From positions 1 through 64,000 of IMG/VR virus record IMGVR_UViG_3300025789_000822: 64,000 nt of DNA. One strand, written 5' to 3'. This DNA comes from a virus. Below the pieces are notes generated by a model. That model was given only the letters and a program-made list of their open reading frames with translations, ran no database searches and had not been told where the DNA came from. The number at the start of each line of letters is the position of its first letter. Within the stretch, counting starts at the first letter, position 1. Both the position numbers and the translations under genes were made by a program. This document shows positions 7,845 through 63,185 of this stretch, one piece after another.

Positions 7845-8636
7845 TTAATTATTTTGATGTTTGGTAATAGCTTCTATTACTTCACTGTGTATTGTATCAG
7901 GTATGTAAGGTTTTAGCAACAGTATTTGGTCACCATATCCCCCATTTCTTGATGGCATACCTTCACCCTGAATGCGTAATTGCATATGGGGTTGGGTGCC
8001 CGGTCTAATTGTAACATCTAATGTTTTGCCACCAATGGTAACAAACTGAATGATGTTACCCACAATTAAATCTAATACAGAAACGGGCATATTGGCATAT
8101 AAATCATCATTTCTGCGCTCAAATTTTAAATCAGGGTTTATAACGAATTCAACAATTAATTGCCCACTATCAATGATTTTATCATATCTAACATGGTCAC
8201 CCGAATTTGTACCACGTGGAATTTTAACGTTTACTACCTTTGAACCAGTTGGCGTGTTCAATTGTAATACATGTTCGTTTTCTTTGTACACATCCATTAG
8301 ACTTACGTTAAGCCTAGTACGGTAAGTTGGTGTTTGATTTCGCTGTTGATTAAATTGATGACCAAATGTTTGCCCAAATAAATCATTTAGGTCAAACCCA
8401 TTCATATTAAATCCAAATCCACCAGGAAATTGTTGCATTTGTGGTCTAGGATTATCATATTGTGCCCTTTTATTTGGGTCACCTAATGTATCATAGGCTA
8501 CTTGTATTTCTTTGAATTTAGTATCGTCACCGCCTGTACGATCAGGATGGTGTTGCATCGCTTGCTTGCGATATGCTTTTTTAATCTCGTCTTGTGAGGC
8601 GTTACGGGGAACGCCTAACGTAGTGTAATGATCCAT
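7845..8636 (-). CDS. dnaJ: DnaJ/CbpA-like co-chaperone without zinc finger
   Basis: 263 residues. J domain at 1-62 with the HPD motif at 30-32, which stimulates DnaK ATPase; a short Gly/Phe-rich linker (about 70-95, [19 protein letters not shown]); then a C-terminal substrate-binding region (about 105-260) with the [12 protein letters not shown] and [19 protein letters not shown] elements of class-II J proteins. The four CxxCxGxG zinc repeats of DnaJ are absent, as in CbpA. First gene of a unit with the ClpA-like unfoldase, from a near-consensus sigma70 promoter. It probably redirects host DnaK during infection. Confidence 0.9.
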
Positions 8637-12219: not shown

Positions 12220-12490
12220 ATTTCTGTTTTTCTTTCACTTCAATCGGTGCTTCTTTTTCAAGTTGCTTAATTAAGTTAGGATAAATTTTCTTATAGTAGT
12301 CATTCATACGATCAAAATCTGTATCATGAACTTTACCTTCAATCACGCATTTTAGAATTTTCTTTTCCGCGTAGTCAATAATCACATTCACACTATTCAA
12401 ATCCGAATTTTTGACACGTTTACTAATGCTAACTTGTTCATCAATTTGCCCACCGGGTTTACGATAAAAAGTAATTAGCATATATCTCAT
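12218..12490 (-). CDS. Conserved 90-aa protein beside clamp loader
   Basis: 90 residues, beginning MRYMLITFYRKPGGQIDEQ, with a lysine/glutamate-rich C-terminus. It overlaps the stop of the gp44-like gene by 4 bases, the place held by gene 62 (small clamp-loader subunit) in T4, but it is half that length and I see no convincing gp62 similarity. Similar short proteins accompany gp44 in aquatic T4-like phages. Function unknown; a clamp-loader partner is possible. Confidence 0.75.
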   Translation of the reverse strand: MRYMLITFYRKPGGQIDEQVSISKRVKNSDLNSVNVIIDYAEKKILKCVIEGKVHDTDFDRMNDYYKKIYPNLIKQLEKEAPIEVKEKQK

Positions 12491-13410
12491 GATGTTAACT
12501 CCACCAATGTTGCTGCCAAACTAATCTCAGGGATGCCTACTAACGGAAGTTGTGCTAGACCATTGCGAATAATCACAATACTCATATCACGCTTTTCATT
12601 ACTAGTGCCCCACAAGTCTAAGTTATCATACATCCACTTGTATGTATCTTCAATACGTGTAGGATACAATGCAATGTATTGCATTAATTGTTGACGACCT
12701 TCAATAATCTTGCCTGCCTTAAACAAGTCAGTTGCAGTCAATAACAATTCGTCTTCACTTTGACCTTCTTTATGAGGTGCTACTAATACACCTGACGTAG
12801 AATTAACTTGAAGTTGATTCAAGCATTTTCTAAGATCAGGGTAAGTTACACGAACATAGGTGTCAAGCACATCCAAATCAAATTCAACACCTTCTGTTAC
12901 CAACACTGTTGCGGCACGTGCTGTGAACTCATTCATATCAGTTTTAGCAATATGGAATGAATGGCATCGTGACTTCAATGCTGGAATGATCTTGTGTTGA
13001 TAGTTACAAGTTAAGATAAAGCGTACTGTTTCATGGTATGCTTCCATATCATTACGCAATGCAGCCTGAAACTCTGCTGATGTATAATCGGCTTCGTCTA
13101 ATAAAATAACTTTAAATTTACCAAAGGGCATTGTTTGTGAAAAACTGTTGATTTTTGTGCGAACAATTTCAACACCATTTTCACGTGATGCATTGATTTC
13201 CATTACATCATATTCTTCAATGCCAAGTTCATGAATAAGAACTTTGGCTAGTGTAGTTTTACCTGTACCCGGATCACCACTTAGTAACAAGTGAGGGATT
13301 GATTCATTTTTGATCCAACCCTCAACTTGCTTTTTCTGATGTTCGTCTACAAAAACATAATCACTTACAGTTTGTGGTCTGTATTTTTCTACCCAAAGCT
13401 GATTTTTCAT
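12487..13410 (-). CDS. 44: Sliding-clamp loader ATPase, gp44-like
   Basis: 307 residues (T4 gp44 is 319). Opens with LWVEKYRPQTVSDYVF, the start of RFC-type loaders; Walker A GDPGTGKT (45-52), Walker B VILLDEAD (101-108), and the arginine-finger motif LKSRC with the preceding sensor LTCNYQHKIIPA. A C-terminal helical collar domain (about 215-307) follows. It loads the gp45 clamp (not in this window) onto primer ends. Third in a run with the GroES-like and polymerase-fragment genes downstream of the promoter at 14657. Confidence 0.94.
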   Translation of the reverse strand: MKNQLWVEKYRPQTVSDYVFVDEHQKKQVEGWIKNESIPHLLLSGDPGTGKTTLAKVLIHELGIEEYDVMEINASRENGVEIVRTKINSFSQTMPFGKFKVILLDEADYTSAEFQAALRNDMEAYHETVRFILTCNYQHKIIPALKSRCHSFHIAKTDMNEFTARAATVLVTEGVEFDLDVLDTYVRVTYPDLRKCLNQLQVNSTSGVLVAPHKEGQSEDELLLTATDLFKAGKIIEGRQQLMQYIALYPTRIEDTYKWMYDNLDLWGTSNEKRDMSIVIIRNGLAQLPLVGIPEISLAATLVELTS

Positions 13411-13411
13411 A

Positions 13412-13771
13412 TTAATAATCTTTACCTTTATAATTTTCGTCTTTTACGTATTCGTCACTTACTAATAATATATCGTTATTGTCTACTTTACGGATAACTT
13501 TCTCGCCTTCAGGAGTTTCAATAGTGATACCTCGAGTCCAGCGACCGTGTGCTATATAAATATATTGTCCTACTTTAATATCTTTTTGCTTTGGCCCAAT
13601 TGCATATACTTTAGCCCAACGTGGTCTGATACCATTACTCTTCATATCATCATTTAACAGAACGATTCCACCATTAGTGATTCGTTCGTCAAATTCCATG
13701 TCAGTTACGATAACAACGTCATGGAGTGCATGAATTTTTTTAACTTTTGATTTGAATATGCTTAAACTCAT
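13412..13771 (-). CDS. GroES-like co-chaperonin, gp31 analogue
   Basis: 119 residues. HALHDVVIVTDMEFDERITNGGIVL matches the start of the GroES fold, with the GGIVL beta-strand after a mobile loop (about 28-40); WAKVYAIGPKQKDIKVGQYIYI and DNNDILLVSDE are the remaining core strands. The mobile loop should dock on host GroEL, as T4 gp31 does to fold the capsid protein. One base separates it from the clamp-loader gene. Confidence 0.85.
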   Translation of the reverse strand: MSLSIFKSKVKKIHALHDVVIVTDMEFDERITNGGIVLLNDDMKSNGIRPRWAKVYAIGPKQKDIKVGQYIYIAHGRWTRGITIETPEGEKVIRKVDNNDILLVSDEYVKDENYKGKDY

Positions 13772-14143: not shown

Positions 14144-14650
14144 CTATTTCAAGAACTCTGTGATTGATAAATCATAGTGTAGACTATTTATTCTGTGTAC
14201 CTGTAACAGAAATAATACAAAACTGCTTACACTACTACCCCGGCCCACTCCCCAAACGATATTGTTCTCACGCATAGTATCTACAAGGTATTTAAGATAC
14301 TTGAGCAATACAAACATATCACGTTCTTGATATAAAAGCAACTCTTCACCTGCCCGTTGTAGTTCTGCTTCATTACTACATTGGTCTAATATGAATTTTG
14401 CAATGTCCATATTCTTGTAACTGTCTGGCATGTACCAGTTACTTCTACAACGCTCATCAAACTCTTCTAATGATTCGTCTGATAGTGTGTACTTTACAAG
14501 TTCGGGGAGATTATTTAGACTTAGTTCTGGGTCAAAACTAATATCATTGTCTACCAAAACGTTTTTTAATTGTGTTTCGGTATTAGTTAGATACAGGTCA
14601 CAGAGGTCTTGCTCTGTGTAAATTTGTTGACTAAATTTATCTGTAATCAT
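14144..14650 (-). CDS. N-terminal half of split Pol III alpha-like protein
   Basis: 168 residues. The second half aligns by eye with the palm entry of bacterial DNA polymerase III alpha: a helix like E. coli's GYFLIV segment (FVLLKYLKYLVDTMRENN), then IVWGVGRGSSVSSFVLFLL (GRGS at 136-139; E. coli VPVGPGRGSGAGS), then INSLHYDLSITEFLK (E. coli LDPLEFDLLFERFLN). It stops exactly there, before the PDxDxDF catalytic motif, which begins another gene at 61945. No PHP domain and no intein sequence. Strong sigma70 promoter immediately upstream. Confidence 0.75.
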   Translation of the reverse strand: MITDKFSQQIYTEQDLCDLYLTNTETQLKNVLVDNDISFDPELSLNNLPELVKYTLSDESLEEFDERCRSNWYMPDSYKNMDIAKFILDQCSNEAELQRAGEELLLYQERDMFVLLKYLKYLVDTMRENNIVWGVGRGSSVSSFVLFLLQVHRINSLHYDLSITEFLK

Positions 14651-14656
14651 TCACAT

Positions 14657-14685
14657 ATGATAACAGAAATGTATGTGATTGTCAA
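14657..14685 (-). promoter_or_regulatory. Sigma70-type promoter for polymerase-like operon
   Basis: TTGACA (14680-14685), 17-bp spacer, TATCAT (14657-14662), ending 6 bases before the ATG at 14650. Almost consensus; it would drive 14650 down to 12218. Confidence 0.85.
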
Positions 14686-57713: not shown

Positions 57714-59117
57714 TTATTTCTTAAGTGAGTTTAGCAACATTTTGAGTTTTGCACTCTGTACATCTGCAACCACACGTTTTTCTTCAGGTTCTACAGTATC
57801 ATGCACTGCTTGATTTACTGATCCTACTTGACTTGTTGTTTTGATCCTATTTAAAATTTCATTAGATGAAGGTTGTTCTCTAGTTTGTTCCGAGTCACTA
57901 TCACTAATACGCATAGTTTCGATATTGTAATCCAAATCAATCTTTTGACCAACACCCGTTGAACTACGACTTTTCATACATTGAATCTGATACTTACCAC
58001 GCTCACGCATACTACGGCTTGTAAAAATACCAAACACATAGTCAGCAGTATTAATCTTACTAATACCACCTGCAATGTGACTATGATCAAACTCGATTTC
58101 TTCCACAGCACTACGATTTAACTGACTTGCAGTAATCATTAATAATCCAAGTTCTTTTGCTAGATTACGTAATTCTTCAGCCACATACTTGTCCTTAACG
58201 AACTGATCAGTTGGGCTGACTTTAACACTAACCGGCATAACCAAGTCCAAATAGTCAATCATAACAAAGTCAACTTTAATACCTGTTTGAATCTGTACTT
58301 CTTTTAAGTATGCACGAATATCGTTGACGTTGCTTTGCGCAGGCAATGATTTAACACGATATTTACCTGCTCTGCTACCATGCATCTTGACTTTGATAGT
58401 TGCATCGTCAATGTCTTTGCGAATGTCTTTTGTGCCCATGTTAGTCAACATCGCATCAGTACGCAAACTAGTAAGTTCTTCACTCAATTCAAGTGTGACA
58501 TAAACACCACTTAATCCTTGTTGCAACCAGTTCAATGCACTATTCATCATGACTAATGATTTACCTGATCCTGAGCCACCTGCAAAGATGTTTAATTCAC
58601 CTCTACTCATGCCACCATACATAATACGATCAAGTTGTGGCCAGCCAGTACTTACTTGACCACCTTGATTGAAATAACGATTCAATCGATCCTTGGGGTC
58701 AGCAAAGTAATCAGTACCCATGTCACGTTGCAAACTGATTTGTACAGCATCTTTGATTAGTTTTTCAACTGGATCAAAGTCACCCTTCTCCAACATGTCT
58801 GCTGCCTTGAGAATAGCACGTTCAAGTTCTTGGCGCTTTGTGAATTGTTCAAATTCTTCTAAGAACCAATCATAATGCCCACTGTCTAGTTCTGCAACTG
58901 TGTCAATTTCTACCCCAGTCGTTGCTTTAATCTGCGTAGGATCGGGAATAACATTATATTTCTTGCTATGTTCAACAATAAATTCTGCGACCGGGCGCAA
59001 TCTACGGTCAAAGTTTTCTGGATTTATAATGTTGATGACACGTGTATACAATTCTGCGTTCGTAACCATCATGCGCAAAAACAATGTTTGCACATCTGTG
59101 TTATAATCTTTTATCAA
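57714..59117 (-). CDS. 41: Replicative DNA helicase gp41-like
   Basis: 467 residues (T4 gp41 is 475), DnaB family. N-terminal helical domain (about 1-120), then GGMSRGELNIFAGGSGSGKSLVM (Walker A 180-187), VDFVMIDYLDLVMP (Walker B) and ITASQLNRSAVEE (motif H3/switch). Unwinds the lagging-strand template as a hexamer with gp61. TTG start at 59117: AGGAG 5 bases upstream, lying inside the last codons of the primase gene. Confidence 0.94.
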   Translation of the reverse strand: MIKDYNTDVQTLFLRMMVTNAELYTRVINIINPENFDRRLRPVAEFIVEHSKKYNVIPDPTQIKATTGVEIDTVAELDSGHYDWFLEEFEQFTKRQELERAILKAADMLEKGDFDPVEKLIKDAVQISLQRDMGTDYFADPKDRLNRYFNQGGQVSTGWPQLDRIMYGGMSRGELNIFAGGSGSGKSLVMMNSALNWLQQGLSGVYVTLELSEELTSLRTDAMLTNMGTKDIRKDIDDATIKVKMHGSRAGKYRVKSLPAQSNVNDIRAYLKEVQIQTGIKVDFVMIDYLDLVMPVSVKVSPTDQFVKDKYVAEELRNLAKELGLLMITASQLNRSAVEEIEFDHSHIAGGISKINTADYVFGIFTSRSMRERGKYQIQCMKSRSSTGVGQKIDLDYNIETMRISDSDSEQTREQPSSNEILNRIKTTSQVGSVNQAVHDTVEPEEKRVVADVQSAKLKMLLNSLKK

Positions 59118-60072
59118 GTTTTCTCCTACTCATCTCTACTTTAATTTTACTAGTAGTTGCGTTTTGCAATATACTTAGTAGTGTTGGCAATCTACCATAT
59201 TTAACCACAGCATCGTTAACGTCTTTGATATTGTCAGCCCAATCAGGAATACTAACAAAAAATCCCAAGTCTAATGCTCTATCACATATCTCTAAACCAG
59301 GCTTATCATGATCAGGCACTACAATGATTTTTCTGTTAAGGCTTCTCAATATCTGTACCTGATCGTCATTGATTGCGTTGTGTGTTAGTGCACAGCCATT
59401 GATACTAAGTGCATCAAAAATACCTTCTACTACAATACAAACTTCCCATTCAGGTTTTTGAAAGTCATAACCAAACACATATCCCGATTGTTGTTCATTG
59501 ATAAACTTAGGCTTTCTGTCGTCTAAGAATCTACTAGTATGTCCTACAATCTTGTTGTTATGTGTAAAGGGGATAATAATACGATTATTATATCTTCCTT
59601 CAGCGTCAGGTGTTACCATAAAGGGATAATCTGTTGGTTGCACCCCACGTTTTTTCAAGTAGTCTGTATATACCTTATGTCTGTGATTATTAGCATCAAC
59701 CAGTTCAGCATCAGGTAGTTCCATTTCTTTGAACTTAACCCTGCTTTTTATTTTTTTAACTTGTATAAGGTCCAATACATCTTTGTTTTGCAGGCTTTCT
59801 AAATTCCAACGATTGATTTGGTTGTCATCTATCCCACACCAAGACAAAAATTGTCGTGTGTTCTTTGTTAGGCTTTTGCCCAATGAGAAACCACATTTGA
59901 AGTTACAATTGAAACAATGAAATGACCAATTAGTTCCATCTGATTTGATACCACCGCGCATACGACGGTCAACTGAATGCCCACGATTGTGGCAGCATGG
60001 TGCATTAAAACTATGCCAGCCACTTTGTGTTAATTTTTTCTTACCCGGAATGACCGTTAGGATATCAAACAT
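59101..60072 (-). CDS. 61: DNA primase gp61-like
   Basis: 323 residues (T4 gp61 is 342). Zinc-binding domain with APCCHNRGH and FHCFNCNFKCGF (about 25-62), then a TOPRIM catalytic region with VVEGIFDALSI (catalytic Glu) and VVPDHDKPGLEI (DxD-type) at about 205-265. Makes lagging-strand primers. Overlaps the helicase by 17 bases; together they follow a sigma70-like promoter. Confidence 0.94.
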   Translation of the reverse strand: MFDILTVIPGKKKLTQSGWHSFNAPCCHNRGHSVDRRMRGGIKSDGTNWSFHCFNCNFKCGFSLGKSLTKNTRQFLSWCGIDDNQINRWNLESLQNKDVLDLIQVKKIKSRVKFKEMELPDAELVDANNHRHKVYTDYLKKRGVQPTDYPFMVTPDAEGRYNNRIIIPFTHNNKIVGHTSRFLDDRKPKFINEQQSGYVFGYDFQKPEWEVCIVVEGIFDALSINGCALTHNAINDDQVQILRSLNRKIIVVPDHDKPGLEICDRALDLGFFVSIPDWADNIKDVNDAVVKYGRLPTLLSILQNATTSKIKVEMSRRKLDKRL

Positions 60073-61011: not shown

Positions 61012-61389
61012 ATGAATCAAGATTTTTTCAAAAAACTAACTGAAAATCACCCTTTCATCACTATTTGTTCTTATGCCAATCAAGATTATGTTGGTATAAT
61101 TCAAAACCGTGATGACCTCGTGACCACAATGTATGACTATGGTTCTATTGTAGAATCTGACCTAAGAGCAAAGTTCTTAGAACTAGGAGATATTTGGTGG
61201 TGGGAAAGTAACAGAGCAATACCCATCAACTTGTTTCTTAGAACCGAGTGGATTGTATTCAAGCCCTATATTAGAACATTCAGCAACAAGAGTTTGAATA
61301 TCATTCATGGCCCTGTTGTTAGTATGACAGACTTCGCCAAGCGCAGGGGCAAGCGCAAATCAATTACACTTGTAAAGAAGATTCCTTAA
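61012..61389 (+). CDS. Conserved T4-like phage protein, unknown
   Basis: 125 residues: FFKKLTENHPFITICSYANQDYVGIIQNRDD, then KFLELGDIWWWESNRAIPINLFLRTEW, and a basic C-terminus (FAKRRGKRKSITLVKKIP). The compact beta core with GDIWWWESNR recurs in aquatic T4-like phages as a small unknown. Its last 26 bases overlap the end of the opposing polymerase-like gene. Confidence 0.78.
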   Translation: MNQDFFKKLTENHPFITICSYANQDYVGIIQNRDDLVTTMYDYGSIVESDLRAKFLELGDIWWWESNRAIPINLFLRTEWIVFKPYIRTFSNKSLNIIHGPVVSMTDFAKRRGKRKSITLVKKIP

Positions 61390-61945
61390 GCAGATTCATA
61401 TGCACGACAACTAATTGTGCATAGGCAATCGCATGACTTTTTTTGAAACTATATCCAGTGTGATCCTTTTCCCACACACTTTCATTCACTTCTTTCCAAC
61501 TCTTACCGACCAAATGACGTTTAGCGGGTCTGATAACTGCTAAGAACATAGCAAGTCTTGGGATACTATTCACTGGTTCAGGCATCTTTTTAAGTGTGTC
61601 ATATTGCTGACCCAAGTGAATTAGTTTTTCAACGGTGTCCTTGTCATTTAACATTGACCAATCAGGCTCGCCCATCAACTCAATCAAATGTAATTCATCA
61701 CGTACTTGATTGTATATATGAACATTCAATAAGTCTAACTTAAAGTATCCACGTTTTTCTGCATCGGCGTAGTGCAAACTAGACATTTGATGTACAGGAT
61801 CGTATGGTATTTCTGTAACATAGACACCAGTGGGATGTTTACGGATAGGCGTTACATTACGCATACTTGCAGGGGTATGCTTAATCAATGATAAAATTTT
61901 ATCACGGTCACCTAAATCAATATCTACATCACTATCAATTATCAT
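61364..61945 (-). CDS. C-terminal half of split Pol III alpha-like protein
   Basis: 193 residues. Starts MIIDSDVDIDLGDRDKIL, matching E. coli PDFDVDFCMEKRDQVI with the two catalytic Asp (residues 8 and 10). Then HPTGVYVTEIPYDP (E. coli HAGGVVIAP), GYFKLDLLNVHIYN with Asp71 (E. coli VKFDFLGLRTLTI, third catalytic Asp), IPRLAMFLAVIRPAK (DMIALVALFRPGP) and YSFKKSHAIAYAQLVVVHMNLLK ([22 protein letters not shown]). Motif order is conserved but the spacing is greatly shortened; OB, clamp-binding and tau-binding parts are absent. ATGA overlap with the SGNH gene upstream. Confidence 0.78.
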   Translation of the reverse strand: MIIDSDVDIDLGDRDKILSLIKHTPASMRNVTPIRKHPTGVYVTEIPYDPVHQMSSLHYADAEKRGYFKLDLLNVHIYNQVRDELHLIELMGEPDWSMLNDKDTVEKLIHLGQQYDTLKKMPEPVNSIPRLAMFLAVIRPAKRHLVGKSWKEVNESVWEKDHTGYSFKKSHAIAYAQLVVVHMNLLKESSLQV

Positions 61946-62628
61946 AATACAAATATACCTTTTTCCTTAGCATTGATGATTTTTATTTCATCTGAATCAA
62001 TCAATTCATTTATCATATTATACAGGATTTTATTATTTTGTTCAGATAAATGGCAAGGTCTAGGATCAGGTTCGTTGGGTAAAGGTCTAGCAGTTTCATT
62101 GGTAGATACATGTACTAATCCAGTGATACATGATCCATGTATATTCGTCAATTGAATAGGTTTACTAATGTTAGAATCTTCTACCCCTTCAAAAGGAAGA
62201 ATATTAACTAGTTTAATGTTGTTTTCTTTACAGATTCTGTTAACGTCATCAAATATTTTTTGACTTAAATAGGTATCTAAATCTAAATCTTGTGTATAAC
62301 GTAATGCATCCCATACTGTTTTCATTTCTTCCATATCTGATTTAGGTAAAAATGCCTTTTGTGGGTTATCATCAAATAACATAAAAGCATAACGCTCTAG
62401 ATAATCAGGCAATGAATGTATTCTATGTGGCATAGTATAAACAAACACCACATGTGTATATTTCTTATAATTTTCTAAAAACTTTTTAAATGAGTTCCAA
62501 ACACTAGTGCCCGGTTGACCATAGTGATCCTCAGAATTTTTATGAATTAGTGCTGGCCAACTATTTTCAGACCAATCACTGCCATAATATGGATGAGCAT
62601 AACTATCACCGAACACACCTAATCTCAT
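61942..62628 (-). CDS. SGNH-hydrolase-like protein (paralogue 3)
   Basis: 228 residues. MRLGVFGDSYAHPYYG contains the GDS nucleophile block; YGQPGTSVWNSFKKF resembles block II (Gly, with Asn) and HVVFVYTMPHR block III; DPRPCHLSEQNNKILYNMI supplies a C-terminal His. Hydrolase with unknown substrate. Coupled by 4-base overlaps to both neighbours, the polymerase-like half and the exonuclease. Confidence 0.74.
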   Translation of the reverse strand: MRLGVFGDSYAHPYYGSDWSENSWPALIHKNSEDHYGQPGTSVWNSFKKFLENYKKYTHVVFVYTMPHRIHSLPDYLERYAFMLFDDNPQKAFLPKSDMEEMKTVWDALRYTQDLDLDTYLSQKIFDDVNRICKENNIKLVNILPFEGVEDSNISKPIQLTNIHGSCITGLVHVSTNETARPLPNEPDPRPCHLSEQNNKILYNMINELIDSDEIKIINAKEKGIFVL

Positions 62629-63185
62629 CTAGGTTCTACCAATCCAGCTTTCATCAATTTCATATATGCACGTTGTACTACAATTGCTTGATGTTCTGCG
62701 TCATCTACTGCCTTGTGACTTGTGACATGCTTACCGTCTTTAAGACTAACGCCTGCAATCTCGTATAATGTACGTGTGTCACGCATAGTCCAAAAGGGCC
62801 AGGGAATGGGATTTGGATTATCACTAGTTTGTCGCCATGCATTTTCCATAACCACTAAGTCAAAGGGCGCACCATTGCTCCATACTGCTTTTCGATTCCA
62901 ACAGAATTTGTAAAGAATTTCCATGCATTCTTTGAATGGCATTCTATCACGATCACCCATAGCCTCTTCGATTGCTTCTGGGCTTTGTTCACCCCACCAA
63001 CGTAGTGTATCGTCATTGATTCTACGATTGTAGATTTCTGTTTGATCCTCAATTGTTGGTCTGAGTTCTAATCGCTCTGCGATACCATTACCCTTGGGGT
63101 CAAATCTTACAGCACCGATAGTCAAGATAACACAATCAGGTGTAGTATCTAAACTCTCAATGTCAATCATAATGTCATTTGCCAT
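62625..63185 (-). CDS. dexA: DexA-like 3'-5' exonuclease
   Basis: 186 residues, DEDD fold. Asp8-x-Glu10 in MIDIESL (Exo I), WSNGAPFDLVVMENAW (Exo II-type Asp) and SHKAVDDAEHQAI (Exo III, H...D). DDTLRWWGEQSPEAI and FWTMRDTRTL match T4 DexA (STIEWWKNQSPEA; NQRDIRT). It degrades 3' ends of DNA or RNA. Next to the polymerase-III-like half, which could use it as a proofreader; that is inference. Confidence 0.9.
   Translation of the reverse strand: MANDIMIDIESLDTTPDCVILTIGAVRFDPKGNGIAERLELRPTIEDQTEIYNRRINDDTLRWWGEQSPEAIEEAMGDRDRMPFKECMEILYKFCWNRKAVWSNGAPFDLVVMENAWRQTSDNPNPIPWPFWTMRDTRTLYEIAGVSLKDGKHVTSHKAVDDAEHQAIVVQRAYMKLMKAGLVEPR

Follow-up and report, generated by a model that had tools for sequence, protein, structure and literature searches.

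Do two genes that lie 46.7 kb apart in a viral genome encode the parts of a single DNA polymerase, and if so, how would the parts be joined? The question was raised by record IMGVR_UViG_3300025789_000822 of IMG/VR, an 88-kb metagenomic fragment, of which we analysed positions 1 to 64,000 (referred to below as the window, 64,000 nucleotides). A gene at 14144..14650 (−) encodes a 168-amino-acid-residue palm segment of a C-family polymerase with the loop GVGRGSS, and is here called the N piece. A second gene at 61364..61945 (−) encodes 193 residues with a DxDxD motif at the start and a reduced fingers domain, and is here called the C piece. The original prediction held that the first gene stops directly before the catalytic DxD of DnaE, that the other starts with it, and that this is a natural split inside the palm. 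We confirmed that the two-gene arrangement is real and strictly conserved, and it is very probably functional.

Split point and retained motifs

The N piece ends with ...GVGRGSSVSSFVLFLLQVHRINSLHYDLSITEFLK, in which EFLK stands at the split point, and the C piece begins with MIIDSDVDIDLGDRD, which carries the catalytic DxDxD at its start. The N piece matched phrog_11127 ('DNA polymerase', E 8.6e-39) and PF07733 DNA_pol3_alpha at 36.8 bits (Pfam cut-off 23.9), and the C piece matched phrog_11778 ('DNA polymerase', E 3e-57). Family alignments of both pieces were compared using hhalign with 12 full-length C-family polymerases. The N-piece family aligned with them at the GRGS segment (75.1 bits, 96.8%), and the C-piece family aligned over a stretch that opens with the HAGG-like motif, includes the third catalytic Asp and closes with the RP of the fingers (80.7 bits, 97.1%). 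The best of 60 column-shuffled controls reached 22.0 bits for N and 26.9 bits for C, and reversed controls gave 13.5 and 20.9 bits, respectively. The pieces align to separate and consecutive parts of DnaE, with scores far above those of the shuffled controls. The same break was found in complete genomes of many cultured phages.

By alignment, R137 of the N piece corresponds to R362 of E. coli DnaE. In the C piece D6, D8 and D10 correspond to D401, D403 and D405, K69 and D71 to K553 and D555, R139 to R639 and H171 to H760. With the two ends joined, Arg362 to Asp401 would cover 37 residues, against 39 in E. coli, which means that the break removed next to nothing. Of 103 N-piece ORFs whose 3' end is complete, 102 have GxGRGS. 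The top fold matches of the predicted N-piece structure were DnaE structures, with probabilities mostly of 0.95-1.0 and weak E-values.

Across 22 paired genomes, the equivalents of Arg362, Gly363 and Ser364 in the N piece and of Asp401, Asp403, Asp405, His511, Lys553, Asp555, Leu557, Arg639, His760 and Tyr764 in the C piece were invariant. R362, G363, S364, D401, D403, D405, H511, K553, D555, L557, H760 and Y764 were also invariant in the 12 full-length enzymes. The GRGS loop, the three catalytic Asp residues and Lys553 of the C family are present and invariant in all 22 pairs; GRGS is found solely in the N piece, and the equivalents of D401, D403, D555, R639 and H760 are found solely in the C piece.

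Other parts of the enzyme are missing. The stretch between D405 and H511, which holds the thumb, is 79 residues shorter in the C piece, and most of the thumb is gone. Between R639 and H760, in the fingers, there are 32 residues here and 121 in E. coli, a stretch shorter by 89. The YQEQ motif, whose QE is invariant in the full-length enzymes, is absent from the C piece, and the arginine-rich LRRAMGKKK stretch of the fingers is missing as well. Lengths and alignment place the PHP domain, the C-terminal domains and the clamp-binding tail outside both pieces. The terms 'N-terminal half' and 'other half' used in the original prediction were thus overstated, since PHP, the thumb, the C-terminal part and a large share of the fingers are in neither gene. 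Judged by these alignments, the two genes are two parts of a palm and reduced-fingers core and not the halves of a complete DnaE.

A full-length PolIII-alpha profile (phrog_405) run on the whole 88-kb record detected only the N and C pieces and no third gene, and on 16 relatives it gave no significant matches beyond the two pieces. A third gene that provides the missing DnaE parts was rejected on this ground. A 27-residue match in Phosso (E 0.01), considered as an extra DnaE part, was judged to be due to chance.

When the C piece was modelled alone, the fingers had a pLDDT of about 90 and most of palm residues 1-70 were below 50. Low confidence in this region is expected if the palm sheet requires the N piece; a shallow alignment could also be the cause. 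A fold search with the C-piece model against DnaE structures gave no significant match, and it is uninformative because the palm of the model is of low confidence. A PDB profile search with the C piece gave nothing relevant.

Occurrence and genomic neighbourhoods

BLAST detected 88 phage records with the N piece and 90 with the C piece, and in one viral collection the C piece had 595 or more environmental matches. A profile search of 13 isolate genomes (PA5oct, Atu_ph07, Phosso, SCTP-2, Vibrio 2.275.O, CBB, RaK2, XacN1, 121Q, BF, Hallingskeid, RAS14 and Slicko01) gave exactly one N piece, one C piece and at least one family B polymerase (PolB) match in all 13. Both pieces were carried by 12 of 17 large environmental contigs, and the other five were without the N piece. 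One of these five, G016, shares its first 1400 bases without a difference with a relative and stops 401 bp before reaching the N gene; for the other four, positions indicate that the N gene would fall outside the contig. All five are fragments, which is exact in the case of G016 and reasoned from position in the others. No intact relative with a single piece was found, the isolates carrying both and the five contigs being explained by their ends. Near-identical short direct repeats were seen just upstream of the N piece at L069:7094-7347 (G002) and at the left end of G016, where they coincide exactly with the contig break. The record of Klebsiella phage W12-3, which is short (109 kb) and marked UNVERIFIED, is most likely incomplete; RaK2 and K64-1, of the same genus, have about 346 kb.

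N and C lay closest together in Slicko01 (about 11 kb) and farthest apart in Phosso (more than 200 kb). Alishewanella phage Slicko01 (OQ508956.1; L272, L276) has a circular genome of only 141 kb, which shows that the pair also occurs outside jumbo phages. Its neighbouring genes are GroES-like and gp44/primase/helicase genes, as elsewhere, and its N piece was missed by BLAST and found by profile. The PolB match of Slicko01 falls in two separate open frames. Compared with the size of over 200 kb that marks jumbo phages, environmental relatives reach 333-525 kb. PolB was present in the large contigs with both pieces, except two of 171-174 kb, and was not found in the 88-kb record, itself a fragment.

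As predicted, each gene has its own neighbours. Next to the N piece are a gp44-like clamp loader large subunit gene at 12487..13410 (−) (phrog_168, E 8.9e-75) and a GroES/gp31-like gene at 13412..13771 (−) (phrog_931, with Cpn10 above the cut-off). The GroES/gp31-like gene was near the N piece in 92/93 eligible relatives, and the gp44 gene was near it and on the same strand in 59/62, counts which, like those for the C locus below, include near-identical contigs.

The C piece lies by a gp61-like primase (Toprim) gene at 59101..60072 (−) (Pfam Toprim/DNAG_N) and a gp41-like DnaB-family helicase gene at 57714..59117 (−) (DnaB_C, E 2.9e-19). The primase is near it in 115 of 123 eligible relatives, the helicase is near it in all 46, and a small convergent gene is found by it in 133 of 139 eligible loci. 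Two genes upstream, at 62625..63185 (−), is a gene for a DEDD 3'-5' exonuclease (Rv2179c-like; PF16473, E 1.3e-33), which was close upstream on the same strand in 108/125 eligible environmental loci. In the isolates the exonuclease is absent or distant from the C piece. It is a possible proofreading partner in the environmental clade. The gene between the exonuclease and the C piece, at 61945-62628 (−), had no family match, and no more than 5 of 136 eligible relatives have it; judged only by eye, its start, GVFGDSYA, is similar to SGNH hydrolases.

The almost consensus promoter noted earlier at the N piece was also recovered. It is a sigma70-like sequence, TTGACA-17-(TG)TATCAT, at 14657..14685 (−), directly before the gene, and it agrees with the consensus at 11 of 12 positions and has the TG. 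Its -10 box ends 6 nt ahead of the ATG, an offset shared by 16 of 27 relatives. With the usual sigma70 start-site spacing, the transcript would start at the A of the ATG, and the N-piece mRNA is apparently leaderless or nearly so. A layout of this type was found for just one other gene of the window, at 7845-8636 (−) (phrog_14336). A promoter scan of the window by itself found 15 promoters, where 17 were expected from shuffles. The scan thus shows no excess; only the conserved position of the N-piece promoter is meaningful.

Probable joining and function of the two pieces

Both pieces are under strong purifying selection. Relative to close relatives, dN was 0.09 and dS 1.10 for the N piece (dN/dS about 0.08), and dN was 0.10 and dS 1.98 for the C piece (dN/dS about 0.05). 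The distance matrices of N and C were correlated with r of 0.94 overall and of 0.61 and 0.90 within sub-groups, values reached in 0 of 5000 permutations. This agreement shows vertical co-inheritance and is by itself no proof of interaction.

The genes leave little room for extra sequence. The N gene is followed by the next gene after 10 bp, and the start of the C gene overlaps the preceding stop codon as ATGA, so there is no space for intron halves. The N ORFs end 0-2 amino acids past an EFLK-type motif in 96 of 103 cases, the motif pattern being unmatched in the remaining 7. An ATG lies 5 amino acids ahead of DxD in 131 of the 148 C ORFs, and no C ORF has more than 56 open codons upstream of DxD. 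Inteins were looked for in both genes at these ends (n=103 for N, n=148 for C) and none was found, which bears out the claim that neither gene carries intein sequence. Joining by an intein or intron was ruled out, there being neither extra sequence nor room. Fused versions, to be sought in related phages, were found in none of 105 N and 152 C ORFs. An apparent ORF containing both the exonuclease and the C piece (L060:734-1655) has two losses that remove DxD, with the tail shifted to another frame, and is most likely an assembly defect. With no intein, no room for an intron and no fusion, non-covalent assembly is the sole evident way to complete the active site, and from these sequence features we may reasonably infer it for the N and C pieces.

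The two genes probably encode obligate parts of a minimal C-family (DnaE/PolIII-alpha) polymerase core, which would be held together non-covalently and would most likely be auxiliary beside PolB. From the homology, the conserved split point, the invariant catalytic residues, the co-inheritance and the neighbourhoods we infer assembly, activity and the auxiliary role. The two would assemble as a non-covalent heterodimer, to which the N piece would contribute the beginning of the palm with its phosphate-binding GRGS loop and the C piece the DxD strand, the third catalytic Asp and the shortened fingers. The setting would be a T4-like replisome with a gp41/gp61 primosome, a gp44 clamp loader and a family B main polymerase, in which the heterodimer may, for instance, serve one of the strands, fill gaps or take part in repair. 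Each piece sits among replication genes, in line with a polymerase.

What counts against a polymerase is that normally needed parts of the thumb and fingers are missing and no third gene provides them; co-inheritance and matching trees also follow from vertical descent, not only from interaction. The complex might therefore assemble as a reduced nucleotidyltransferase for short-gap filling, priming or end-processing and not as a processive polymerase. The loss of the thumb and of the YQEQ/arginine finger segment beside invariant metal- and triphosphate-binding residues agrees with this, and PolB, present in every isolate, can be the replicase; however, the conserved position of the two genes close to those for primase, helicase and clamp loader points to a role at the fork, and we regard a nucleotidyltransferase as unlikely. 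A structural subunit of the replisome that has lost catalysis and is retained just for binding would fit the missing catalytic sub-domains and the presence of PolB as a second and complete polymerase. A dead enzyme is not expected to keep its catalytic residues, yet the three catalytic Asp, Lys553, Arg362 and His760 show no change among 22 paired genomes whose identity differs widely, which makes a dead subunit quite improbable.

It is more improbable still that the two genes act separately, no longer meet and have a function each. Their distance of 11 to more than 200 kb and their separate neighbours and promoters would fit this, but every intact genome checked has one of each and none has one alone, and the active site is divided between them, with the triphosphate loop in the N piece and the metal ligands in the C piece. 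In an 88-kb metagenomic fragment one might suspect an error of annotation or assembly, a pseudogene, or recombination that disrupted a full-length polymerase; this is refuted by the isolates, whose complete genomes have the identical break, and the lack of any fused ORF and the strong purifying selection make it hardly credible. The polymerase core formed by two obligate parts is the reading that we retain, and Iyer et al. 2021 (PMC7824862) reached the same one. A fuller picture is offered tentatively and is rather doubtful as a whole: the pair, with about 361 residues, may form a C-family polymerase that is active without a thumb, second beside PolB in one replisome, possibly proofread by the DEDD exonuclease in the environmental clade, with the N subunit made from a leaderless transcript. 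The timing of the N subunit may in that case differ from that of the C subunit.

Comparison with known split polymerases

The pair and full-length DnaE/PolC (PF07733, phrog_405) share the GRGS loop, the DxDxD, KxDxL, RP and KSH-type motifs, and their order. The full-length enzyme is a single long chain (E. coli DnaE has 1160 amino acids) with PHP, thumb, complete fingers and C-terminal domains, whereas the pair consists of about 361 residues in two chains. In cyanobacteria, DnaE is encoded in two distant genes with intein sequence on each half, and the halves are spliced to one protein. The cyanobacterial break is far downstream of the palm and has intein sequence; that of the pair is inside the palm and has none. 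Pseudomonas phage MIJ3 also has a polymerase encoded in two genes, a split PolB (PMC6892783). It differs in being of family B, in its adjacent genes and in the intein with an HNH endonuclease at the break. MIJ3 carries the N and C pair in addition.

The original prediction knew of split DnaE only from cyanobacteria. This novelty did not hold, since Iyer et al. 2021 (Viruses 13:63, PMC7824862) described a minimal PolIII-alpha of jumbo phages that is split into two proteins with distant genes, and both pieces are named PHROG families. They proposed that the two proteins reconstitute the enzyme. The pair in the window is another instance of that already known system. Like here, the group 2.2 jumbo-phage split PolIII-alpha (PMC7824862; PHROG 11127 and 11778) consists of standalone proteins from distant genes, an N protein with the NTP-binding part and a C protein with the metal- and template-binding part, with no other DnaE domains. 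Those phages carry PolB, as do the isolates studied here. Nothing essential differs; here there is also a non-jumbo carrier, Slicko01, and an exonuclease near the C piece in the environmental clade. In the literature that we searched, no experimental test of the activity of the pair was found since the 2021 prediction. Our analysis adds that the split point is exact and universal, and it contributes a formal test of co-occurrence, an inventory of which motifs are kept and which are lost, a carrier that is not a jumbo phage, the association with an exonuclease in one clade and the conserved promoter position. These additions leave the kind of system unchanged.

It is unusual for the active site of a polymerase to be shared out between two independently encoded proteins, and this pair occurs widely. 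Cultured phages such as E. coli phages 121Q and PBECO4 and Pseudomonas phage PA5oct make its activity readily accessible to experiment. If active, the pair would be among the smallest C-family polymerases known and would define the minimum of a C-family polymerase that is needed for catalysis. One replisome in these phages would then combine a polymerase of bacterial type with one of archaeal/eukaryal type.
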